Shown piece by piece: positions 4,066 to 58,379 of a DNA stretch of 64,000 nucleotides (its first letter is position 1; each line of letters opens with the position of its first letter). The stretch is from a virus, in the IMG/VR virus record IMGVR_UViG_3300042090_002370, positions 1-64,000 of that record. One strand, written 5' to 3'. The position numbers and the translations under genes are program-made. The notes under the pieces are model-generated. The model was not told the DNA's origin and ran no database searches. It saw only the letters and a list, made by a program, of their open reading frames with translations.

Positions 4066-4432
4066 CAACACCGGGAAGCTGTTGTTCGATTCAGCGTGTA
4101 AGCTCGACTTGAAGTACGACCCGCTGTCGATTGACGAAAGCTTCTGCTGTGGAGGTCGTATGGCGTTGGAGCCTGGTGTGGCCACAGAACGACGCGAGAT
4201 CAAGCCGTTCCGCTTGAACTTCATCCGAGCCAACGACTTCCACCGTGTCGAACTCCGAGGTCGTACCGCCCAGACGCTTTTTCTAGCAGGTCCCCGAACG
4301 CAGGACTGGGGCTTTCTCGATCCAAAGACGGGGGAGTACTTGCCCTGGAAGGTGCACATGCAGCTTCGAGGTCAGACGACCGAGAGCGAACGTGCACCGC
4401 AAGAACTGCGAAGGGAGGCGAAGCATGTTTGA
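4043..4432 (+). CDS. Hypothetical protein
   Basis: A 129-residue frame overlaps the previous gene by 23 bases and the next gene by 8. It starts with a Pro-rich stretch, has a CCGG pair near residues 34-37, and a C-terminal half rich in Arg and aromatic residues. ATG 4043 is preferred to the in-frame TTG at 4019, although no strong ribosome site precedes it. It lies directly before the OPRT gene. Function is unknown. Confidence 0.6.
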   Translation: MPPPPLPSNTGKLLFDSACKLDLKYDPLSIDESFCCGGRMALEPGVATERREIKPFRLNFIRANDFHRVELRGRTAQTLFLAGPRTQDWGFLDPKTGEYLPWKVHMQLRGQTTESERAPQELRREAKHV

Positions 4433-4999: not shown

Positions 5000-7900
5000 A
5001 TGTCCTTCGTCCCTGCAGCCGCCCCCTACACATCCGCCGAGATACAAGCTGTTGTGATGCAGCTCGTGCAGAGCTCTATCAATTACCCCGTCGACACGCT
5101 GGGGGTGAGAAGAACCGACTTGACCTTCGGAGACTTCCAACAAGCGGCGGCCGGAATCTTCATATTGTTTACGGATGCGCCATTCTATGTGTTGTGGTTG
5201 GGAACACAACGACTGAATGATGCGATTACAGCGGAGGCTAGTATCTGCGCTCAGCTGCTGTCTGCAATACAAGCGCTGGGTACGCCTGTCTCGCCCATCA
5301 CTGATGTAACGCCGCTCTTCAACGCTCAAGCCGCTCTGGCCAATCTCGGTGCGGCCGCAGCTCAGCGCGGAGGTACATTTACGAACATCCAGGCTACGCC
5401 AGGCTTCCAGCAGCTGATGAAGAGCACGCAGGCTTTCTTGAAGGGGCCTGGGCAGAACGTGGTGTCGCAGGGGCAGATCGTGCAGACGCCTCAAGCCGCC
5501 CGACAGTCTATCCCCGGTCTTGTTACGCAGCTTCAACAGGCGCACGCCGCGCTCATTCAGAGCGTGCAGAAGCTGGTGGACGGCATCGAGAACTACAACA
5601 GCGTCAATCTGCCTGCTGTGGTCTCTTCGAGCGTGCTCGCGAATGCCTCGAGTCTTGTGGGCAACGATGCGAACGTGATGAATAGTTTGACGCCGTCCGC
5701 GCGGCTACAGCAGGTGCGCCAGGTTGTACTCAACCTCATCGCGACACAGACCGTGGTGCAGACCTATTGTTCCTTCAGCGGACCAAGCCAGTTCATCCCG
5801 CTTACGGGAGTAGGTATGCCCTACTCCGATGCGCTGCATCTGGCTACGCCGGCGACTGCGGTGGCGACCCTTGGTGGAGGGGCCGCCATCGTGGCGGGGG
5901 TGAGCGATCAGCTCGAGCTCACGATGGACGGCGGAACGCCGTTCACTCTTACTCTTAGCCCCTCATTGGTAGCGACTCTACAAGGGCAGCTCGCTGAGCC
6001 TTTCCTTATTGGAGATGGCGTGAACCCACCAGAGCCGTACGGCCCTCCAACGAACCCGCCTACGCCGACCAACAACATCTTCCAGCTGCATGTTGGTGTT
6101 GTGACTTACACGGCTACGCTTACGACTGGTTTGCAGACGGCAGACCAGGTCGTTGCGGACATCCAGGCCGCGATGCCCTCGAATGTTACTGCGTCGCCCT
6201 ACTACTCCCCGCTCTACTACTCAGGTGGAATCAACATCGCAGCGGGCACGAATACAACCTGGACGCTGCCCGTTTTGGGCATCAGCGACTTCATCGCGCT
6301 CGGCATTACGGCCACGAACTCCACGGTTACCGTGCCGTCAGGCCCCAACGCAGGCACCTTCCCCCTTATCGCCGTAACGAGCAATACCGTTACGGTGACC
6401 GGTACGTTCGTGGCTCAATCGAACGTTCAGGTCGAGATCGGTGCGATCAACCGCAAGGTACAGATCGTCGTTGCAGATACTACGGCCGACATTCTGCTCG
6501 AGACAACGATGACGATACTCGGCACAACTACTACGACCGCGGCTTGTGCTCAGGCTCTTGGCTTCATCCCAGGCATCAGTGCTTCGTGCAAGAGAACAAC
6601 GCCAGACCAAACAGCGGCCTACATCAATACGGTCACTAGCCAAGTAGAAGCAGGTACGCAGAACCAGTATTCGCTCATCGGCGTACCGGCGCATAGCGTT
6701 GTGCTCTCTACAAGCGAGCTCGTCTTTGCTGAGGCGGAGACCATGGGCTCACAGGCTTTCACCGGCACGACACTCACGTATACAGTAGTTAGCCTTACCG
6801 TGGCCGGCTCCGTCAGTACGGGGGACACCATTGCGCTTCGAAGCGGGGACGCAGCTACGAACGGCTACACCATTACGACGGTCAATGGAGAAGCAGCGTT
6901 AGACCACGCACTAGCCGTGGGTGATGTTATCGTGGCTACGGGCTCGTACTCTGGCACCGCGGCAAGCAGTATCGATGCTGAGTACGGGCCCACCATTACC
7001 GCCAACGAGTACGACGTGGTGGACATACCCAGCGGGCAGAATCTGGGGACGTACTTCGTGCAAGGCAATGGTGCTACCGCCATCGACATTATTCTGCAAC
7101 GTCCGCTGCCCTATCCCATGACCGCCGCACAAGGCTCGGTCGATGTAACAGCCAACTACGGGGAGATGTACCTCACGCTCTCAAGCCTCAATACGACAAC
7201 ATTGAGCGCAGTTGAGGTAAAAGGAACTGGTGGCGCGCTATTTTTCGCTTCTGTTCCCTTCACGCAGCTTGGAACCACGCCCTGGTTTCAGCTCCCGAGC
7301 CTGCCACAGCAGCTGCAGCCAGGTGATCTCCTCTACACCTACGCCACGGACTACAACGAGCCTAGCGCTATCTACCTCATCACCGGCGTTGAGACCGGTG
7401 TGGGCACAGGCGTCATTCAGCTGCAGCCAGAGATACCCGATGGAGTGAGCTGGAGCTTCAATGCGCAGCCGCCGCCCTTCGCCCAACTCGCGTATGGGGT
7501 GCAGAACGATTACACCATCGTGCAGATGCAGTGGCAGGCTTGGCTCGAGGCCGCGCCTCAGCAGCCCAACTACTTCACCAACTTCAACGCGGTCTTGAAC
7601 CCCGTGCTGGTGAACACAGCGCCAAGAGCCGTCGACATCGGCAACGCGGTCAACTTCCTCAATGAGCTCTATGGCCTACTTACCACAGCGCAGGCCACGC
7701 TCCTCGAGGAAGACCCGACTGCCACCATCCAAGGCATCAGCGCGACCTTCACTGTTGAGCCCGTGCCCGCCGTCGATACGATGGTCACCACCTATACAGG
7801 TAAGGGCGCTGACCTCGCCGTCGATACTCTCCTGTCGGGCGACTTCGCTTCATTCTTTGGCCTGACGTCGCAGACCTCTAGCTATGCAGGAGCAATGCAG

Positions 7901-8173
7901 GCGGCAATACAAGCGGTCGCAATGAACGACCTGCCTATCAGGAAGATCAACCGCAGCATCGTGCAGACCAGCCAGATCATCGGCACTACGGCTTCGCCTG
8001 ACCTCGAGTACACAGCGAACAGTGTGACCGAGCAGCTCCAAGGCGATCAGCCCAACCCGCCTGCAGCGCTTGGAAGTGGGGTACCAAGTTCATACGGCAC
8101 AACCATTGGCATGCCCGCTACAGCAGGCGCCCAGACTAGTAATCAACCTACGCCAGGGAGCGGAAATACATGA
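5000..8173 (+). CDS. Large virion structural protein, probably tail or baseplate associated
   Basis: This 1057-residue protein has a helical N-terminal part (about 1-250, with Gln/Ala-rich coiled segments) followed by several hundred residues of Thr/Ser/Val/Gly-rich beta structure, the composition of phage tail, baseplate and fibre proteins. Stretches such as LELTMDGGTPFTLTL resemble segments of the baseplate J-like protein at 30881. The C-terminus is Gln/Pro/Gly-rich. No enzyme motif is visible. It starts just after the OPRT gene and its stop overlaps the next start as ATGA. A structural role is inferred from size and composition. Confidence 0.7.
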   Translation: MSFVPAAAPYTSAEIQAVVMQLVQSSINYPVDTLGVRRTDLTFGDFQQAAAGIFILFTDAPFYVLWLGTQRLNDAITAEASICAQLLSAIQALGTPVSPITDVTPLFNAQAALANLGAAAAQRGGTFTNIQATPGFQQLMKSTQAFLKGPGQNVVSQGQIVQTPQAARQSIPGLVTQLQQAHAALIQSVQKLVDGIENYNSVNLPAVVSSSVLANASSLVGNDANVMNSLTPSARLQQVRQVVLNLIATQTVVQTYCSFSGPSQFIPLTGVGMPYSDALHLATPATAVATLGGGAAIVAGVSDQLELTMDGGTPFTLTLSPSLVATLQGQLAEPFLIGDGVNPPEPYGPPTNPPTPTNNIFQLHVGVVTYTATLTTGLQTADQVVADIQAAMPSNVTASPYYSPLYYSGGINIAAGTNTTWTLPVLGISDFIALGITATNSTVTVPSGPNAGTFPLIAVTSNTVTVTGTFVAQSNVQVEIGAINRKVQIVVADTTADILLETTMTILGTTTTTAACAQALGFIPGISASCKRTTPDQTAAYINTVTSQVEAGTQNQYSLIGVPAHSVVLSTSELVFAEAETMGSQAFTGTTLTYTVVSLTVAGSVSTGDTIALRSGDAATNGYTITTVNGEAALDHALAVGDVIVATGSYSGTAASSIDAEYGPTITANEYDVVDIPSGQNLGTYFVQGNGATAIDIILQRPLPYPMTAAQGSVDVTANYGEMYLTLSSLNTTTLSAVEVKGTGGALFFASVPFTQLGTTPWFQLPSLPQQLQPGDLLYTYATDYNEPSAIYLITGVETGVGTGVIQLQPEIPDGVSWSFNAQPPPFAQLAYGVQNDYTIVQMQWQAWLEAAPQQPNYFTNFNAVLNPVLVNTAPRAVDIGNAVNFLNELYGLLTTAQATLLEEDPTATIQGISATFTVEPVPAVDTMVTTYTGKGADLAVDTLLSGDFASFFGLTSQTSSYAGAMQAAIQAVAMNDLPIRKINRSIVQTSQIIGTTASPDLEYTANSVTEQLQGDQPNPPAALGSGVPSSYGTTIGMPATAGAQTSNQPTPGSGNT

Positions 8174-8295
8174 AGCGATTATACGTCGCAGGAGGTGCTG
8201 TGTTACAGCTTCTACCAACAGACTTCGTCCTCAATCTACCCATCAACCACGGCATTGCTCTTGGTATTGAGATGGGACACAGGGAGATGGGCTGA
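8170..8295 (+). CDS. Small hypothetical protein (41 aa)
   Basis: The start overlaps the stop of the large virion gene (ATGA) and the stop overlaps the next ATG (TGATG). The product is a mostly hydrophobic 41-residue peptide without a clear transmembrane helix. The tight coupling on both sides argues for real translation. Confidence 0.5.
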   Translation: MKRLYVAGGAVLQLLPTDFVLNLPINHGIALGIEMGHREMG

Positions 8296-8639
8296 TGCTC
8301 GACTCTTCTTACTACCAGTGGACGATGGGGGATGCGACGATGTTCGTGCGCAAGCTCTCTGAGATCGTGGTTCCATTCGGTTACGAGGTTGCCATCGCTG
8401 GCTCCGTGCTCAAGACAGGGCGCAGTATGAAGAACCTCGACGTTGTTCTCTTCCCCACCTGCATCGGCAAGGAGGATGAGAAGAGCCTAACAAATGCGCT
8501 GCAGGCATTCGGCATGAGGATGACGCACGGTGCCGAACGTGTGCGCAAAGGCTGGGGTGAGAAGGGCGCGAGGGACACCAAGCATATAGAGGTGTGGGAT
8601 TACAACGGGAAGAGGGTTCACCTCTTCTTCTTGAAGTAG
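8295..8639 (+). CDS. Nucleotidyltransferase-like small protein
   Basis: A 114-residue protein contains a GS-x-D arrangement typical of the nucleotidyltransferase fold: AGSVLKTGRS (35-44) followed by LDVVLFP (48-54). Only one of the two usual metal-binding acidic residues is evident, so it may be a binding rather than a catalytic version. Proteins of this type occur in large phages as stand-alone domains. It is coupled by TGATG to the gene before it. Confidence 0.6.
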   Translation: MLDSSYYQWTMGDATMFVRKLSEIVVPFGYEVAIAGSVLKTGRSMKNLDVVLFPTCIGKEDEKSLTNALQAFGMRMTHGAERVRKGWGEKGARDTKHIEVWDYNGKRVHLFFLK

Positions 8640-8648
8640 GAGGCAATC

Positions 8649-8888
8649 GTGAGTGAAGATACAAGACGCGCGCTGTCTAAGCCTGGTGCTGCGTCAGCTA
8701 CAGAGGTCGAGTTGGGTAGAACAGAGCGAACACGCGCTGGCTACTGGGTACGGTTAGGGCGTGTGGAGTTCGAGGGTGAGGGCCTACGTGTACGCATCTC
8801 GTTGAACCGCGGCGATACGTTCGTACGGCACCTTGATCTCACACAGGAGCTCGCGCATGGCCTCTGCGGCCTGCTGAAGAAGCTGTAG
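8649..8888 (+). CDS. Hypothetical protein (79 aa)
   Basis: A GTG start at 8649 follows GGAGGCAATC. The 79-residue protein is charged, with a central beta-rich segment (YWVRLGRVEFEGEGLRVRISL) and a helical C-terminus. I recognise no family. Confidence 0.6.
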   Translation: MSEDTRRALSKPGAASATEVELGRTERTRAGYWVRLGRVEFEGEGLRVRISLNRGDTFVRHLDLTQELAHGLCGLLKKL

Positions 8889-8968
8889 TGCCGAAGAGAG
8901 CCTGCGGTCATCCATATGGCCTGCGGCGCGTTGACGCCGCCACAAGGTTCTGGTTTGAAGGAGATACA

Positions 8969-9295
8969 ATGAAAGAGTTTAGAACGAAGTTCCTCGTCTC
9001 CAAGAATGCCGCGAAGGCTACGACGACGGCGCCGGTGAATAGCGGCCCGCAACAACCCCAGCTCACGCGCAAGCAACGTCGAGCCAACGCCACATCACAC
9101 CGCCTGCTCACGCAGAAGATCAACAAGGCAACCGAGCTCGGTCGCCCAGTCTCCATTCAGCAGGGCAGGGGCGGTAGGCTCGAAGTCGTAGTGGGTAAGG
9201 CGAAGAAGCCAGACCCTGGCCCTCAGCCTGGTGAGGTCATTACCGAGGTCTCTGGTAACACGCTGCCCGAGCTACCAACACCAGAGGTAGAATGA
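8969..9295 (+). CDS. Hypothetical basic protein (108 aa)
   Basis: ATG 8969 is chosen because GAAGGAG precedes it at good spacing; a GTG at 8888 in the same frame would add 27 residues. The protein has a basic middle (LTRKQRRANATSHRLL) and an acidic, Pro-rich tail. Its stop overlaps the next start (ATGA). Function is unknown. Confidence 0.6.
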   Translation: MKEFRTKFLVSKNAAKATTTAPVNSGPQQPQLTRKQRRANATSHRLLTQKINKATELGRPVSIQQGRGGRLEVVVGKAKKPDPGPQPGEVITEVSGNTLPELPTPEVE

Positions 9296-9555
9296 GCGCC
9301 GATCTTGTTCGCCGGCTCGACGCTGCTATGAAGAAAGCTGGAATACCCGTGGCGCTTGGTGCGCGTTACGACAGTGCGCTCCAGATCGTCGCCTACGAGT
9401 TGGAGGGTACCGCTACTAATGGCCGAAGGTCCCGGCCTTTGGCGCACCGACGCTATCCACTCAATCGTCATGTACGACCACCTCTCATTCCAAGAGTTTC
9501 ACGACCGCGTCAACATAGCTGCGAGCAGACACGCTGGCTCCGTGCAGTGGCTTGA
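9292..9555 (+). CDS. Small ORF overlapping the M14-like peptidase gene
   Basis: The frame starts in an ATGA overlap. Its first 43 or so residues (SADLVRRLDAAMKKAGIPVA...) look like genuine protein. The remainder is Arg/Pro-rich and lies in the +1 shadow of the peptidase gene from 9419, so it is probably not selected. Either a short gene lost its stop codon, or a frameshift separates an N-terminal piece from the peptidase. Confidence 0.4.
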   Translation: MSADLVRRLDAAMKKAGIPVALGARYDSALQIVAYELEGTATNGRRSRPLAHRRYPLNRHVRPPLIPRVSRPRQHSCEQTRWLRAVA

Positions 9556-10159
9556 CAACGGCGGCGCCCAAGTTCGAATCGGAGATCAGCACCTCCCGGC
9601 CATTTGCATCGTAAGCGGGCTTCACGGCGACGAGCGAAGCGGCCCAATCGCGATCCTCCGACTCCTCGAGCGAGCAAATCTACTGCTGCCTGTGGGCTAC
9701 TCGCTACTGGTGTTTCCACTGGTCAACGACGTGGGATGGAACGCGCGGACACGAGAATGGAGCACCCTCGATCTGAATCGCAGCTTCGGTTTACCCCACG
9801 CTCCGAAGTTCCTCCAGCAGATCGCTGACGAGATCGCGCGTAGCCGACCGCCTGGGTTCCTCGATCTGCACGAGGACTCCGATACGGATTTTCCCTACAT
9901 CTTTCGATACCTGAGGGACGATCCTGAATTCGCTCTCGAGCTGCAGGCGGAGTTGAGCGCAAGAGACGAGTGGTGGGACGACAATCCCGGCTGGGCGGGT
10001 GCGAGCGAGTGCCACGCCCGCGCGCATGGGTCGCGTGTCGCCGCTACGCTGGAGGCTCCGCCCGTCTGGGCGCTCGAGCGACGGGTCGAGTGGAATATGA
10101 AAGCTGTCGAGGTCGGAATCGCATGCATGCCGCGCCATCTCGCGCGGGTTGCCCGCTAA
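9419..10159 (+). CDS. M14/AspA-like zinc carboxypeptidase or amidase
   Basis: The 246-residue protein carries the zinc-ligand set of M14-type carboxypeptidases and succinylglutamate desuccinylase relatives: HGDE (His69, Glu72), the substrate-binding DLNRSF (118-123) and FLDLHEDSD with the third ligand His151. The superfamily hydrolyses amide bonds at carboxyl ends of peptides or acyl amino acids. Some phage members cut peptidoglycan stem peptides, but no signal peptide or wall-binding domain is visible, so the substrate is unknown. ATG 9419 has an upstream GGAGGG at longish spacing. The glutamate that acts as general base in the family is not obvious. Confidence 0.75.
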   Translation: MAEGPGLWRTDAIHSIVMYDHLSFQEFHDRVNIAASRHAGSVQWLDNGGAQVRIGDQHLPAICIVSGLHGDERSGPIAILRLLERANLLLPVGYSLLVFPLVNDVGWNARTREWSTLDLNRSFGLPHAPKFLQQIADEIARSRPPGFLDLHEDSDTDFPYIFRYLRDDPEFALELQAELSARDEWWDDNPGWAGASECHARAHGSRVAATLEAPPVWALERRVEWNMKAVEVGIACMPRHLARVAR

Positions 10160-52513: not shown

Positions 52514-55366
52514 ATGAGCCACGCATGGGTCGGCCAATGGGGTGCGCTGGCCGTCCCTGCGGGGTGGTGGGGCGGTGCGGTAGGCGTCGCCACGCCTTCG
52601 GCTACCGGTTGGTTCGATCCCGAGCTTCTACGTCTGCCGTCGACTACGGCGTCACTGACTGGATCTATCCCAACATCAGAGGCGCTAGGCGCCTTCATTA
52701 TGACGGTTGTGCTCACGTTGCCTGGCATACCGAGCGGAGAGGGATGGTCTAAGGCTTCGCTGACGTATGGGGTTAGCGCATCAGGTATTGCTAGCGCAGA
52801 GGTTTTGGGGGCACCGAATGTAGGGGGGGCACTGTCACCGTCCGGCGTTTCTAGCGCCGAGGCCGTGGGTGCAGAGAAGACAACGTACGGGCTCACACCA
52901 GTTGGAATACCGTCATCAGAAGCGCTGGGTGCTGAAACTACGACGAGCGTGCTCGCGCCCTACGGCGTTTCTTCCGAAGAGAGGCTCGGCGCCGAAACTG
53001 TAACAGTTGGTATATCACCGCCAGGTGTGGCGACTGCGGAGTCCTTGTCGAAGGCCGGTACGACTTTGGGCGTGTCTACGTCTGGCATCGACAGCGCCGA
53101 GCGTGTTAGCGCTCCGACTACCTCGACGGTACTAGCACCAACCGGAATAAGCTCAGCTGAGTCTCTACCAGGCACCAGCACTACTTCTGGTCTTTCACCA
53201 TTCGGTATTGCGACATCTGAGGTTGTTGGCCAACCGAACGTAGGATGGGCTGTAGACGCCAACGGTATTCCGACCGCTGAAGGGCTAGGTGCAGGTACGC
53301 TTTCTGCTGCGCTCACTCCATCAGGTATCGATACTGCTGAGTCGTTACCGACAGCAAGTACTACAACTGCAGTATCTGTCGCTGGTATCTCGTCGGCTGA
53401 GACCGTTGGTGCTGGCGGTGTGGCGTCGCCACTGAACCCACCAGGAATCCCTAGTGCTGAAGCGCTGGGTGCGGAAACAGTCGCTTTCACAGGTACTGTT
53501 ACAGGTATTGACTCTGCCGAGTCGCTGCCCGGTGCGCGTACTACATTGGGTATCGCTACGTCGGGCGTAGCCTCCGCTGAGGTTGTCGGTGCGCCAAACA
53601 CTGGCTGGGCGGTAAACGCTACAGGCGTACCTACTGCTGAGGCCATCGGCGCAGAGACGGCAGTACTCTCTGGGTCTGTGCCTGGTATCGCAACAAGTGA
53701 GGTGCTGGGCGCACCAGCTACTGCATTGCAGGTCTCCGTGGCTGGAATTGCATCTGCAGAGGCCGTTGGAGCAGAGGATGTCTCGCCAGCGCTCTCACCA
53801 CCGGGTATTTCTACAACCGAGGCACTCAGCGCGGAGAAAGCCACAGTCACACTTTCGCCTTACGGGATATCTAGCTCGGAGGCTGTTGGTGCGGAGACGC
53901 TGTCGAGCTCGCTCGCGCTTTCAGGGATTGCTACGACGGAGATTATAGGAGCGCCGAATACAGGCCCTGCGCCAGCACCGGCAGGCATACCTACCGCAGA
54001 GGTTTTGGGCGCCACAACATCCAAGACCGTTTTGTCGGTGTCTGGGATCAGCAGCGCGGAAGCCCTCTCACCTTCGCCCATTTCTTTCGTGCTAGCGCCC
54101 AGTGGAATACCAACAGCGGAAGCGCTTGGTGCTGAGAACGTACTCATTGCGTATACGTTGTGGGGCATTGCTTCTGAGGAAAAGCTTGGCGCTACGACGT
54201 CGTCTAGCACCCTCAAAGGTTTTGGTATCGACTCCGCTGAGGTGCTGGGCCAGTCAACCACTGCGCGTACAGCGTTCATCTCAGGGATTATCGGTAGTGA
54301 TGAGGCATGGGGGTATGGAAAGACAACACAGGGTGTCAGCGTTGCCGGCATTTCTTCTACAGAAGCGCTTTCGGCTGCGAGCACTACTCAGTGCGTTTCC
54401 ACAAGCGGTATTGCCAGTAGCGAAGCTCTTGGCGCACCCGATGTCGGGTGGGCTCTACAGCCGGCTGGCATTTCGACCGTTGAGTCATTGGGCGCAGAGA
54501 AGATAACGCTGACGCTCGCACCGTCCGGCATTTCCAGCAATGAGGCCGTAGGCGCATCCGATGTGGGCCATGCGATATCGCCAGGCGGTATTCCTAGTGC
54601 CGAAGCGGTATCCAAGAGCGCTGTCTCTATTACGCTGTCCCCGTACGGCATCGGTTCCAATGAGGCGCTGTCAGGCGCGTCGGTTGCGCAGTCGTTCACC
54701 TTCTTTGGTATTGATAGCGTCGAGCGTGTGGGAGCGCCGAATGTTGGTTGGGCGCTGTCGCCGTCAGGGGTCGCATCAGCAGAGTCCGTCAATGTACAGA
54801 GAACAACCGCAACTTTCACGCTTGTTGGGATAGGAAGCGCTGAGGCTGTGGGTAGTATGAGTACCGGTCCAGCCATACGCATTGCTGGAATACCGGCAGC
54901 TGAGTCGGTTGGCTATTCCACGGTTTCAATTGTGTTGACTCTGCAAGGTATCTCCTCTCAAGAGGTGCTTTCGGAGCCGTCTGCTACGCAAGCGTCGGCT
55001 GTCGCCGGCATCGCAAGCGATTCAGTAATCGGTGCGGGCACCGTTCAGATTATTCTCGCGAACGTTACCGCTACAGGTGAGTGGATACAGTACACGTACC
55101 TCTCTGGCACTGGGGCTTCGATCGGGTACAGACAACCCAGCTTTATCTCCCTCGTGAGTGGTGCAAAAGGCATCGGTGTTCGGCCTACGTCGCGACCGGT
55201 TCAAGTTCCTGTGGCGGCACCCACATCGCCGGCTCCCCCTCAAGGCCCCGCACCGGTGTCTGGCAAGGATATGCTCCCCCCGACGATTAGCGTACCGCGC
55301 GTACAACTTCCAGAGCCGGCACCAGAGGGTCCGCCACAAGGGCCGGCACCGACCCGCCGACGATGA
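52514..55366 (+). CDS. Long 20-residue-repeat fibre-like protein
   Basis: The 950-residue protein has a short N-terminus (1-49), about 40 tandem units of 20 residues (50-851), a small beta domain (about 852-890), and a Pro-rich tail (about 890-950) with repeated PPQGPAP. The unit consensus is G-I-x-S-x-E-A-L-G-A followed by ten variable residues that end in a small or Pro/aromatic residue. Repeats of the GIxSAEAxG type occur in phage and bacterial surface proteins; a regular period suggests a long beta-solenoid or spiral fibre. It ends the rightward virion block. A receptor-contacting or spacer role is inference. Confidence 0.75.
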   Translation: MSHAWVGQWGALAVPAGWWGGAVGVATPSATGWFDPELLRLPSTTASLTGSIPTSEALGAFIMTVVLTLPGIPSGEGWSKASLTYGVSASGIASAEVLGAPNVGGALSPSGVSSAEAVGAEKTTYGLTPVGIPSSEALGAETTTSVLAPYGVSSEERLGAETVTVGISPPGVATAESLSKAGTTLGVSTSGIDSAERVSAPTTSTVLAPTGISSAESLPGTSTTSGLSPFGIATSEVVGQPNVGWAVDANGIPTAEGLGAGTLSAALTPSGIDTAESLPTASTTTAVSVAGISSAETVGAGGVASPLNPPGIPSAEALGAETVAFTGTVTGIDSAESLPGARTTLGIATSGVASAEVVGAPNTGWAVNATGVPTAEAIGAETAVLSGSVPGIATSEVLGAPATALQVSVAGIASAEAVGAEDVSPALSPPGISTTEALSAEKATVTLSPYGISSSEAVGAETLSSSLALSGIATTEIIGAPNTGPAPAPAGIPTAEVLGATTSKTVLSVSGISSAEALSPSPISFVLAPSGIPTAEALGAENVLIAYTLWGIASEEKLGATTSSSTLKGFGIDSAEVLGQSTTARTAFISGIIGSDEAWGYGKTTQGVSVAGISSTEALSAASTTQCVSTSGIASSEALGAPDVGWALQPAGISTVESLGAEKITLTLAPSGISSNEAVGASDVGHAISPGGIPSAEAVSKSAVSITLSPYGIGSNEALSGASVAQSFTFFGIDSVERVGAPNVGWALSPSGVASAESVNVQRTTATFTLVGIGSAEAVGSMSTGPAIRIAGIPAAESVGYSTVSIVLTLQGISSQEVLSEPSATQASAVAGIASDSVIGAGTVQIILANVTATGEWIQYTYLSGTGASIGYRQPSFISLVSGAKGIGVRPTSRPVQVPVAAPTSPAPPQGPAPVSGKDMLPPTISVPRVQLPEPAPEGPPQGPAPTRRR
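52661..55066 (+). repeat. About 40 tandem 60-base repeats
   Basis: Each 60-base unit encodes 20 residues; two units are one codon longer. Third-position variation is high, so the array is old and kept by protein selection. A higher-order pattern exists: units containing GAPNVGWA-type sequence recur every five to eight units, usually followed by a GIPTAEALGAE-type unit. Confidence 0.85.
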
Positions 55367-55620: not shown

Positions 55621-55644
55621 AAAAAAGAGGGCCCGTTGGGGCCC
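55621..55644 (-). terminator. Leftward terminator of the replication operon
   Basis: On the minus strand GGGCCC pairs with GGGCCC around CAAC and is followed by TCTTTTTTAGCTACCC. It lies just beyond the last leftward gene (55650-55817). Confidence 0.8.
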
Positions 55645-55649
55645 CCTGT

Positions 55650-55817
55650 TTACTGGCTGCGCCCCGCGTCCTCGAGCGCTGTGGTTTGTGGGCATGGCGA
55701 CGCGCCTACATCTATGGGCTTGTCGAAGTCATTACAGCGCGTTGTGATGAGCGCGAAGGCCAACCAGAATAGCAGGATTCCGACTGTGATGATGGCCTCC
55801 TTCGTGCGTCTCTTCAT
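55650..55817 (-). CDS. Small membrane protein, spanin-like (55 aa)
   Basis: ATG 55817 has GGAG nine bases upstream, overlapping the stop of the frameshift ORF. The peptide has basic MKRRTK, one membrane segment (AIITVGILLFWLAFALI, about 8-24), a Cys at 29 and a polar, partly acidic tail. It could be a small single-pass membrane protein, possibly a spanin-type or holin-antiholin component. Last gene of the operon, directly before the terminator. Confidence 0.65.
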   Translation of the reverse strand: MKRRTKEAIITVGILLFWLAFALITTRCNDFDKPIDVGASPCPQTTALEDAGRSQ

Positions 55818-55821
55818 GGTG

Positions 55822-56034
55822 TTACTCCGCTTGGTTTCTTTTGAGCCGTACTCTCACGAGGTCTGGAAAGCGTTCTTCCTCTACAAGCAATACGCCAGCC
55901 CGGCGAGCGAGTTCGATAATCGATCCGTGGCTCACGGTATCCAGCAGCGCCTCATCGACTTCGATGAAGTCCAGTTTCTGCGGGCGCGTGGTACCCGGCC
56001 ACGGATCGTCGAGTACAGCTCTTACGCTTTTCCC
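55822..56034 (-). CDS. -1 frameshift extension of the 309-aa protein
   Basis: This open frame overlaps the end of the 309-residue gene in the -1 frame and has no usable start codon upstream: the first in-frame CTG or GTG lies well inside it. Its 68 codons beyond the slip site read as ordinary folded protein (PQKLDFIEVDEALLDTVSHG, then IIELARRAGVLLVEEERFPD). Its stop overlaps the ribosome site of the next gene with normal operon spacing. Translation by a -1 shift at GGGAAAA would give a 376-residue fusion. Confidence 0.65.
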   Translation of the reverse strand, partial: GKSVRAVLDDPWPGTTRPQKLDFIEVDEALLDTVSHGSIIELARRAGVLLVEEERFPDLVRVRLKRNQAE

Positions 56035-56951
56035 GTTGCCTGGTTGACGATGGACTGGAAGTTGTTCCCGTCCTCTATCGCACTGCGCAGAACGTCGATG
56101 GGGCTGACCCCGTTCACGGCTGACTGTGACTGCAGAAGCATCATCATGGTCCAGATCTGGACCTTCCAGGTGCTCTCTACGAGATTGGTGAGCGTGGTCA
56201 TCTGCGCCGTGAGCGCCTTGTATTGAACCTCCAGTTCGGTAATACGACTGGCCTTCATGCTGGCGGCCTCCTCGAGAATCGAGGAGACGTTCTTCTGCAT
56301 AGCGTCGTAACGTTCACGGTCCTTGTCTTGACCGTCGATAAGACGCTGTAGGAAGTTGATGACGTCGGCGCCGAGGTCGACTGCGGCACCTGCGCCGGCG
56401 TTTGTTTTAGGTGCGCGCTTCGGTTTCTCGCCGGCAGCGACGGCACCAGCCGCAGCGATGGCACCAGGGCTCACGTTGGGGATGAAGCCCGGTCCTGCAG
56501 TCACAGCGCCGGCAGCGGCGACACCGACGACCCCGACGCCGCTGGTCAACGGCGTGGTCATCGTGGTGGGAGGTGGCACAAACCCGGTTGTAGGCGCGCC
56601 TATGGGGGCAACGGGCTGCATCTGCTGCACACCCGGCTGCAGTGAGCTTGCCATCGAGTTTACAACGGGGGTGCGTTCGACGACTGGTGCCGGCATTGCG
56701 TGGCCGGAGACACCGTTGGTTGGCGCTGCAGCGCCTGGGTTCTGCTGGTCCCAGCGTTTCAGTAGTTCGAGGATGTATGTGACGCGGGCATCGGTAGTTT
56801 TGAGCTGGTACCAAGCTTGCTTCTCGGCTTCAGTGCGCATACTGCCGAGGTGACGCTCTGCGAGTAGGCGCAGCTGGAACGGGCTCTTCTCTGCCAGTGC
56901 GACAGCGTCACGCGGTGCGTTCTGCGGGGTCAATTCATTCGGGTCAGCCAT
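56022..56951 (-). CDS. Coiled-coil protein with programmed -1 frameshift site
   Basis: The zero-frame product has 309 residues: an N-terminal helical domain (1-70), a long Ala/Pro/Val/Thr-rich linker (about 72-185), and a C-terminal coiled coil (about 190-285: VINFLQRLIDGQDKDRERYD; MKASRITELEVQYKALTAQM). The last codons are ACG GGA AAA GCG TAA, containing the heptamer G GGA AAA in exactly the X XXY YYZ phase. After it a 5-bp hairpin (CGTGG/CCACG) can form about 25 bases downstream. It lies in the replication operon between small genes. Tail-assembly chaperones use such shifts, but this protein does not resemble one. Confidence 0.75.
   Translation of the reverse strand: MADPNELTPQNAPRDAVALAEKSPFQLRLLAERHLGSMRTEAEKQAWYQLKTTDARVTYILELLKRWDQQNPGAAAPTNGVSGHAMPAPVVERTPVVNSMASSLQPGVQQMQPVAPIGAPTTGFVPPPTTMTTPLTSGVGVVGVAAAGAVTAGPGFIPNVSPGAIAAAGAVAAGEKPKRAPKTNAGAGAAVDLGADVINFLQRLIDGQDKDRERYDAMQKNVSSILEEAASMKASRITELEVQYKALTAQMTTLTNLVESTWKVQIWTMMMLLQSQSAVNGVSPIDVLRSAIEDGNNFQSIVNQATGKA
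56028..56034 (-). promoter_or_regulatory. Slippery heptamer GGGAAAA (-1 frameshift)
   Basis: Reading leftward the zero frame is ACG GGA AAA GCG TAA. Slipping one base back pairs both tRNAs on GGG AAA and continues AGC GTA AGA in the extension frame. The stop follows one codon later, a common arrangement at programmed shift sites. Confidence 0.65.
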
Positions 56952-56960
56952 TGTAGTCTC

Positions 56961-57341
56961 CTAACTTTTCTTGTGCAGCAGGATGAGCCGTTGGTTCTCG
57001 GCTCCGTTTGAGGTGAGGCAGCTGTACACCTGAGCGTCGACGCAGGCGAAGCAGGCGTCGGGCTTGAAAGAGCGTGCGGGACACGTGAGCTGTGTCTCGA
57101 GTTTCTTTCTATGATCGATGATGAATTTCATGAGAGCAATGCGTGTCTCATCCACGTCGTGGAACGGCAGCGGCGGGGGTGGTACTTCACCGATGATGAT
57201 TCGTATGAGGGCGTCGCGACTTAGGCTGGGTAATACAACGTGTCCGGCACCGCGCGCAATCTGGTAGATCTCTGTATGGTTGCAGCGCTCGAAGAGAGCG
57301 TACTCTGCAGCGAACTCAGGTGAGACGGTCGAAGACGTCAT
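56961..57341 (-). CDS. Conserved-type Cys-containing protein (126 aa)
   Basis: ATG 57341 lies inside the end of the RusA-like gene. The protein has an N-terminal helical domain (AAEYALFERCNHTEIYQIAR), a Pro-rich turn (GEVPPPPLPFHD) and a C-terminal motif CPARSF-PDACFACVDAQVYSC. The last resembles small zinc-binding proteins that often neighbour RusA-type resolvases in phages, from memory. Function is unknown. Confidence 0.65.
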   Translation of the reverse strand: MTSSTVSPEFAAEYALFERCNHTEIYQIARGAGHVVLPSLSRDALIRIIIGEVPPPPLPFHDVDETRIALMKFIIDHRKKLETQLTCPARSFKPDACFACVDAQVYSCLTSNGAENQRLILLHKKS

Positions 57342-57762
57342 TGAACGGGCAGCTTTCTTCTTCCAGACTCCAGACCCAGAGCGTGCTGCGCTCCGGCGTA
57401 CCCTGAACCTTCTGCGGGTGCATGGACAAGAATTGCGAGTCGTCGATTCCACCAGCCTCTTTGAGCGCGTCAATGAGCAGCTTGAGACGGTTATCGACGT
57501 CGATATGCTTATACCGCGATGCGGCCTTTCCTGTCGTGAATCCGGAGTTCTCTATCTGCTCGAGATGGAAGCGCAGTGCAATTACATATGGTTTGTTCGG
57601 TTTGAAGATGCGCATCTCCTTTGGGTAGTTCTGGGAGAAGTGAGCGGTGGTCGTCGTGAGGAACTCCCTGCCGACTTTGGTGAGGATGCGTCCACGACCA
57701 CGCATGTTGAGGTAGGCATGATTCGAGCTAGGCGGTATCCAGGGAACGTCCAGGCGAATCAT
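57316..57762 (-). CDS. rusA: RusA-like Holliday junction resolvase
   Basis: ATG 57762 is preferred (GGGAAGA upstream); ATG 57777 is possible. The 148-residue protein has the RusA layout: an N-terminal PPSSNHAYLNM and the catalytic acidic block HIDVDNRLKLLIDALKEAGGIDDSQF (Asp88, Asp90, Asp98, with Asp107-Asp108). RusA proteins are dimeric nucleases that cut four-way DNA junctions, here presumably during recombination or before packaging. It follows the RecA-like and nuclease genes in the same operon. Confidence 0.85.
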   Translation of the reverse strand: MIRLDVPWIPPSSNHAYLNMRGRGRILTKVGREFLTTTTAHFSQNYPKEMRIFKPNKPYVIALRFHLEQIENSGFTTGKAASRYKHIDVDNRLKLLIDALKEAGGIDDSQFLSMHPQKVQGTPERSTLWVWSLEEESCPFNDVFDRLT

Positions 57763-58379
57763 CGAGAGTCTTCCCATCGGCCGCGTGACTGGCCCGGCAT
57801 GTTTGCTGACCTGTTGCCGGCATCACTCTCCATCCTTCGTGTCTCAATCTGTCTCGAGATAACCTTGACGTTAGTCTCGACCTCCTTGCACCAGGCGTTT
57901 GCTTTGAGCTCGAGTTGCTGAAGCTCCTGCTGACGAATCGCCAGCGTGTGGTAAGCGGGGTCGCTCTCGATGACGTCTGACATCGTTTGTACGGTCATAC
58001 GCTCGCTCTTCTTCTTGCCAGATTCCAGGTTGCGGAAGTGTTCGCGTTTCGTGCGTGAGATATCAGCCATCTCGTTTTCGACCTGCAGTAGCTCAGCACG
58101 AATGTCGGCGAGGATCCGTACGATGTGGTTGTACCATCGGACGTGCGCCGTGTGTGTCACGGTGTACGACTTGGCGTCAGGTACCAAAAGCTGTTCGGCA
58201 GTGATGGGGAGGTACGCGACGTTTGGCTCCTGGCTGATTTGCATGCCAGACATCCTCAGTCGCGCGTCGACGTATGGCAGCGTGTCTCGTTCGCCGGCGA
58301 TGTAATCTGCGTCTTGCTGGCCGATGCCGATGTCACCCGGCAGACGCAGGCCACCTGTCTGAGGCGCTCGTGTGGTCAT
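57759..58379 (-). CDS. Helical protein between nuclease and RusA genes (206 aa)
   Basis: After a short polar N-terminus the protein is almost all helical: HVRWYNHIVRILADIRAELL, then RTKREHFRNLESGKKKSERM and a final LELKANAWCKEVETNVKVIS coiled coil. It overlaps both neighbours by four bases. Location between a Cas4-like nuclease and RusA suggests a recombination accessory or mediator role, similar in context only to UvsY. There is no sequence proof of that. Confidence 0.6.
   Translation of the reverse strand: MTTRAPQTGGLRLPGDIGIGQQDADYIAGERDTLPYVDARLRMSGMQISQEPNVAYLPITAEQLLVPDAKSYTVTHTAHVRWYNHIVRILADIRAELLQVENEMADISRTKREHFRNLESGKKKSERMTVQTMSDVIESDPAYHTLAIRQQELQQLELKANAWCKEVETNVKVISRQIETRRMESDAGNRSANMPGQSRGRWEDSR

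Follow-up and report, generated by a model that had tools for sequence, protein, structure and literature searches.

How is the 3' end of a gene decoded when a slippery heptamer precedes its stop codon and a second reading frame continues, shifted by one base, into a further stretch of protein? The question is raised by a 309-codon gene on the minus strand of the window, that is, the whole stretch of DNA analysed here, positions 1-64,000 (the first 64 kb) of the 163,859-base virus record IMGVR_UViG_3300042090_002370. A first-pass annotation, made from the letters alone, had proposed a programmed -1 ribosomal frameshift at this place, and comparative evidence from 24 of 24 distinct loci now supports that proposal; in all likelihood the sequences reveal a genuine programmed frameshift, not described before, in a group of large uncultured phages.

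The slip site in the window

The 309-codon open reading frame (ORF) ends in ...CAG GCA ACG GGA AAA GCG TAA, and the features that matter to the argument are the following.

56951-56022, minus strand: zero-frame ORF of 309 amino acids (sequence, AlphaFold2 model, homologues)
56034-56028, minus strand: slippery heptamer G_GGA_AAA, in zero-frame phase (sequence; conservation in relatives)
56024-56022, minus strand: zero-frame stop TAA, one sense codon past the heptamer (sequence)
55822..56030, minus strand: -1-frame extension, a predicted helical domain (conservation in the -1 frame; ratio of nonsynonymous to synonymous differences, pN/pS, below 0.6; predicted local distance difference test score, pLDDT, of the model 85.9)

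In the -1 frame the shared residues GK are followed by SVRAVLDDPWPG...LKRNQAE, i.e. by 68 codons up to a TAA at 55824-55822, and the fusion would be 376 amino acids long; one peptide of the extension is LDFIEVDEALLDTVSHGSIIELAR. The next ATG stands at 55817, 4 nucleotides (nt) after the end of the extension. Re-reading of the sequence reproduced all the coordinates, the lengths (309 and 68 codons, 376 residues) and the phase of the heptamer given in the first-pass annotation, and its description of a 68-codon frame devoid of its own start agrees with the lack of any ATG, GTG or TTG in the window's -1 frame within 60 nt of the slip.

Collection of homologues

A search with the extension only first gave relatives at about 60% identity, their alignments starting at residue 1, and each of them carried the heptamer with a zero-frame stop directly after it; L006, L007 and L010 were added by matching DNA to a pattern of which the heptamer was a part. 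Circularity was avoided in a later search, which used only the upstream neighbour of 126 amino acids, and neither the heptamer nor the extension. This search re-found all the earlier contigs and many more, and the arrangement was present in every locus (13/13 neighbour-selected contigs in a first scan; 25/25 in a deeper scan, plus one contig from a metagenome-assembled genome, MAG). With near-duplicates counted once, the collection comprises 24 distinct loci, nearly all of them obtained by the neighbour-based search, namely the window, 22 IMG/VR contigs and the MAG contig. Neither of the final two viral scans added a new contig, and the viral collection looks saturated at this search sensitivity. 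The 5.6-kb MAG contig (L031, JAKPDW010000076.1), which carries the gene pair, belongs to a MAG labelled Deltaproteobacteria; it may be a phage contig that hints at the host group.

The zero-frame protein as sole query found no relatives. Among 50,697 records of named phages and phage isolates there was no credible match to the protein, to its neighbour or to the extension, and UvsX and the extension of L041, used as queries against named phages, were likewise without match. The one phage match of the window extension, to Stenotrophomonas phage Yut3 (E 0.09), was dismissed, for it lies antisense inside a ligase gene.

Conservation of the slip site

Alignment of homologues, the check that the first-pass annotation had suggested, shows both frames and a slippery heptamer to be conserved throughout: in 24/24 distinct loci an in-phase heptamer stands at the 3' end of the ORF, and in 24/24 the -1 frame continues into the same extension family, shortened in three of them. 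The heptamer is G_GGA_AAA in 18 loci, G_GGA_AAC in five (L035, L037, L038, L041 and L043) and G_GGG_GGA in one (L039). The zero-frame stop follows within 0-3 sense codons of the slip in 21 of the 24 loci; it is farther off in L031 and L027, and more than 50 codons away in L032. In this last locus (L032, 7058-7226) the nearby stop is gone and the zero-frame tail exceeds 50 codons; GGGAAAA is nevertheless still present, as is the -1 extension. At L039:7166 the in-phase G_GGG_GGA takes the place of GGGAAAA and is followed by a strong predicted hairpin.

The heptamer is also singled out by its position. Upstream -1-frame stops and downstream zero-frame stops limit the shift in L025, L028, L035 and L043 to an interval of 28-31 nt, inside which the heptamer is the sole canonical site, as it is within the allowed interval in 22/24 loci. 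When 353 non-overlapping ORFs of at least 100 amino acids, taken from the window and the fetched relative loci, were scanned for an in-phase G_GGA_AAM within their last 36 nt, 13 cases were found, all 13 in the frameshift gene; this count is a floor, since the overlap filter removed some copies of that gene. The slip site is kept despite a median identity of 28% in the extension and a zero-frame C-terminus that barely aligns, its alignable residue being the G of the heptamer-encoded GK/GN.

Coding character and predicted fold of the two parts

In 13 pairwise comparisons, which share sequences and hence are not independent, pN/pS of the extension ranges from 0.17 to 0.57 in the -1 frame, whereas the two remaining frames give 0.73-1.65 and 1.09-4.72; the extension also retains the pattern WP[GN]C...D...L..LA..LGV. 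To judge from these substitutions, the extension is evolving as a protein in the -1 frame, under protein-level selection. Its model is a confident small helical domain (mean pLDDT 85.9), in keeping with the earlier impression that this frame reads like folded protein. Shorter extensions of 49-51 amino acids occur at L029:7360-7509 and L033:7478-7633, where the WPG start is kept and the usual helix pattern is lost.

Searches for the identity of this domain gave weak hints. Proteins with Rho_N, SAP and HeH domains recur among weak viral Foldseek matches of the extension (best E 0.4, none significant), and the best profile, HeH, reached 13.9 bits against a cut-off of 28.9 (E 0.047) in 1/21 members; Foldseek against the PDB gave no significant match, and profile searches against solved structures gave nothing credible. 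Nucleic-acid binding by the extension is put forward as a hypothesis. An origin of the extension by duplication was considered and set aside, the hhalign probabilities (16.5% against the neighbour, 33% against the zero-frame N-terminal domain) being too weak to claim it.

The AlphaFold2 model of the 309-residue product consists of a helical N-terminal domain, a disordered linker rich in Pro and Ala, and a long C-terminal helix of 88 residues. Foldseek found no match to this model, and no AAA+ ATPase domain was recognised in the product by Pfam.

Proposed mechanism

Programmed -1 ribosomal frameshifting at the heptamer, which would give the gene two decodings, can be advanced with high confidence on these comparative grounds. 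Ribosomes that stay in frame would meet the stop one codon past the heptamer and release the 309-residue protein. When tRNA-Gly occupies the P site and tRNA-Lys the A site over G_GGA_AAA, some of the ribosomes would slip back by one base, re-pairing from GGA to GGG and from AAA to AAA, and would then read 68 further codons to yield the 376-residue form with its extra C-terminal helical domain. Tandem slippage of the P- and A-site transfer RNAs would explain the conserved two-codon pattern. Some share of ribosomes would slip, the short form presumably being the majority; the long helix might form oligomers in which short and long subunits are mixed, and the extra domain might use a fold akin to Rho-N/SAP/HeH to bind either nucleic acid or a partner in recombination. 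A more specific proposal, tentative and rather doubtful, is that the -1 shift acts as a DnaX-like stoichiometry device: it would place a nucleic-acid-binding domain on a minority of the subunits in a coiled-coil assembly, and the gene product would be a new recombination factor acting alongside UvsX/UvsY-type proteins and the cysteine-rich neighbour.

Stimulators and points that weigh against a frameshift

The first-pass annotation had also drawn a downstream hairpin, which did not hold up as a stimulator.

55987..56003, minus strand: hairpin CGTGG/CCACG, unsupported as stimulator

This hairpin can be drawn, yet it starts 24 nt past the heptamer and is absent from the predicted minimum-energy fold. 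The region downstream of the slip in the window folds no better than shuffles (z 0.10; z about +1). A stem proposed by RNAalifold around the slip site, GCCACGGG/CCCGUGGC, was rejected, for it uses heptamer bases, is broken in several sequences and has no covariation; Rfam returned nothing but a sub-threshold microRNA match. Strong downstream folds occur in L032, L039 and L042, and pairing of the Shine-Dalgarno (SD) type in several other loci; stimulators look lineage-specific.

Several observations count against the proposed shift. No stimulator common to all loci is evident, and efficiency could be low; in the window the downstream folding is unremarkable, and upstream SD-like pairing, mildly enriched overall (mean rank 0.35), is not enriched there (rank 0.58). 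G_GGA_AAC, the heptamer of five loci, is inefficient in Escherichia coli (PMC4066793). L029, L031 and L033 have only a shortened extension, the resemblance of the domain to the Rho-N/SAP/HeH fold stays below significance, and in L030 and L033, where an ATG stands at the slip site, reinitiation could replace or supplement slippage. In favour of the shift stands published work in E. coli, where many heptamers, G_GGA_AAG among the most effective, shift above background without a stimulator (PMC4066793); certain shifts of tailed phages likewise seem stimulator-independent (PMC5009743).

Alternative explanations

Termination followed by reinitiation, or independent initiation, would make the extension a small protein of its own, translated from an ordinary or an unusual start codon close to the zero-frame stop. 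The closeness of that stop to the start of the extension suits this idea, as do the ATG at the slip site of L030 (in an ATGA overlap) and L033 and the GTG or TTG within 60 nt in five other loci. Reinitiation is nevertheless unlikely as a general explanation, because 17/24 loci have no ATG, GTG or TTG in the -1 frame within 60 nt of the slip, and it leaves unexplained the in-phase heptamer of all the loci, including L032 with no stop nearby and L039 with a different heptamer; overall it is given only a slight chance. The first-pass annotation had held that a separate start for the extension, or loss of the heptamer with the extension kept, would speak against frameshifting. Neither was found outright: L030 and L033 have the ATG and keep the heptamer, and L039 is without GGGAAAA yet carries G_GGG_GGA in phase.

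Less probable still is the idea that the shift yields a tail assembly chaperone like lambda G/GT, encoded away from its usual setting, although the heptamer is of the same type and a C-terminal extension is likewise added. The gene sits in a recombination operon, tail genes are not beside it in the same operon, the protein architecture is different, and none of 23 homologues matched a PHROGs tail chaperone at E 0.1 or better. The remark of the first-pass annotation that the protein is unlike these chaperones and lies among replication genes is thus borne out, its operon encoding a polymerase, UvsX, a resolvase and RusA.

Transcriptional slippage on a homopolymer run would produce messenger RNAs in the shifted frame, and the A runs at the site and the G6 run of L039 might invite it. 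Efficient slippage of this sort is known from longer runs than the A4 or A3 (the latter in G_GGA_AAC) present here, and the conserved pattern is that of a tandem codon heptamer; the chance of this explanation is very small. A sequencing error or a decayed gene, i.e. one ORF split by an indel, which a lone metagenomic contig could contain, is excluded for practical purposes: 24 distinct loci, from separate contigs, share the identical split and frame relation, and the sequence on either side of it is under purifying selection.

Genomic neighbourhood

Besides RusA, the operon that contains the frameshift gene codes for a family A DNA polymerase, a recombinase resembling UvsX, a Holliday junction resolvase, a nuclease resembling Cas4 and a protein that weakly matches UvsY. 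RusA is followed by the 126-residue neighbour and then by the frameshift gene, these being last genes of the operon.

56961..57341, minus strand: upstream neighbour of 126 amino acids with four invariant cysteines (independent search handle)
57316..57777, minus strand: RusA-like Holliday junction resolvase (Pfam RusA E 1.1e-6, PHROG 34)
55626..55647, minus strand: stem resembling an intrinsic terminator, at the operon end (consensus match only)

The replication operon of the first-pass annotation does hold replication genes and is better described as one of replication and recombination, given the UvsX-like, RusA, Cas4-like and UvsY-like members. ORF layouts are similar in the four relatives inspected, the comparison being one of layout and not of family assignments. 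The neighbour gives the same weak SAP, HeH-LEM and Rho N-terminal sequence and fold hints as the extension. At L027:3708-4841 no stop separates the neighbour from the zero-frame gene: the two share one ORF, inside which an ATG stands at 4089, and this single frame suggests, though it does not establish, that they act together.

Repeat proteins are found nearby. In the window a 950-residue protein of diverged GIxSAExxGA repeats (52514-55366, plus strand) is convergent on the frameshift operon, and in L002 a different protein of 1497 residues with SESxxTPSDSVxR repeats (5635-10128, minus strand) adjoins the copy of the gene. A search of the window for tandem repeats at the DNA level found none.

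Comparison with known systems

In the literature searched, the programmed frameshifts described for phages lie mostly in structural genes, those for tail assembly chaperones and those for proteins of the capsid and the tail (PMC5009743, PMC10885494). No frameshift such as the present one was found in the openly licensed literature, which is weak evidence of absence. The mechanism of -1 slippage is known; the gene family, its setting in a recombination operon and the added domain appear to be new. Here the frameshift is kept across a deeply diverged lineage of uncultured phages in a gene of a DNA metabolism operon, and having both C-terminal forms, in some proportion, may be of consequence for the replication or recombination of the phage. 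Because the extension lacks a start codon in most relatives, standard gene-finding programs will probably overlook it. Slippage rules might be compared on natural variants, namely L032 without a nearby stop, L039 with another heptamer, and the loci with AAC in the A site.

Lambda G/GT resembles the present case in its tandem -1 slip at a heptamer of the G_GGA_AAR type shortly before a phage gene ends, in the C-terminally extended form that results and, apparently, in the lack of a conserved stimulator. Lambda G/GT is surrounded by tail genes and precedes the one for the tape measure protein, whereas the present gene belongs to a recombination operon, has its stop 0-3 codons past the slip in most loci, and encodes another architecture that matches no chaperone family. 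Frameshifting likewise supplies phage proteins with a C-terminal domain in the case of the T3/T7 major capsid protein, of phage A2 and of Listeria phages; those are structural proteins, the domains often being immunoglobulin-like, whereas here a small helical domain is added in a recombination operon (PMC5009743). With the helix-extended-helix domains of SAP, HeH-LEM and the Rho N-terminus the likeness consists of weak sequence and fold hints only, with no significant match. The dnaX gene of E. coli differs in that its frameshift product (gamma) is the shorter form and here it is the longer one, and the present gene has neither the clamp-loader ATPase nor the conserved SD and hairpin stimulators of dnaX; yet both are replication-related genes with two C-terminal forms, and the gamma/tau pair offers a model for mixed oligomers.
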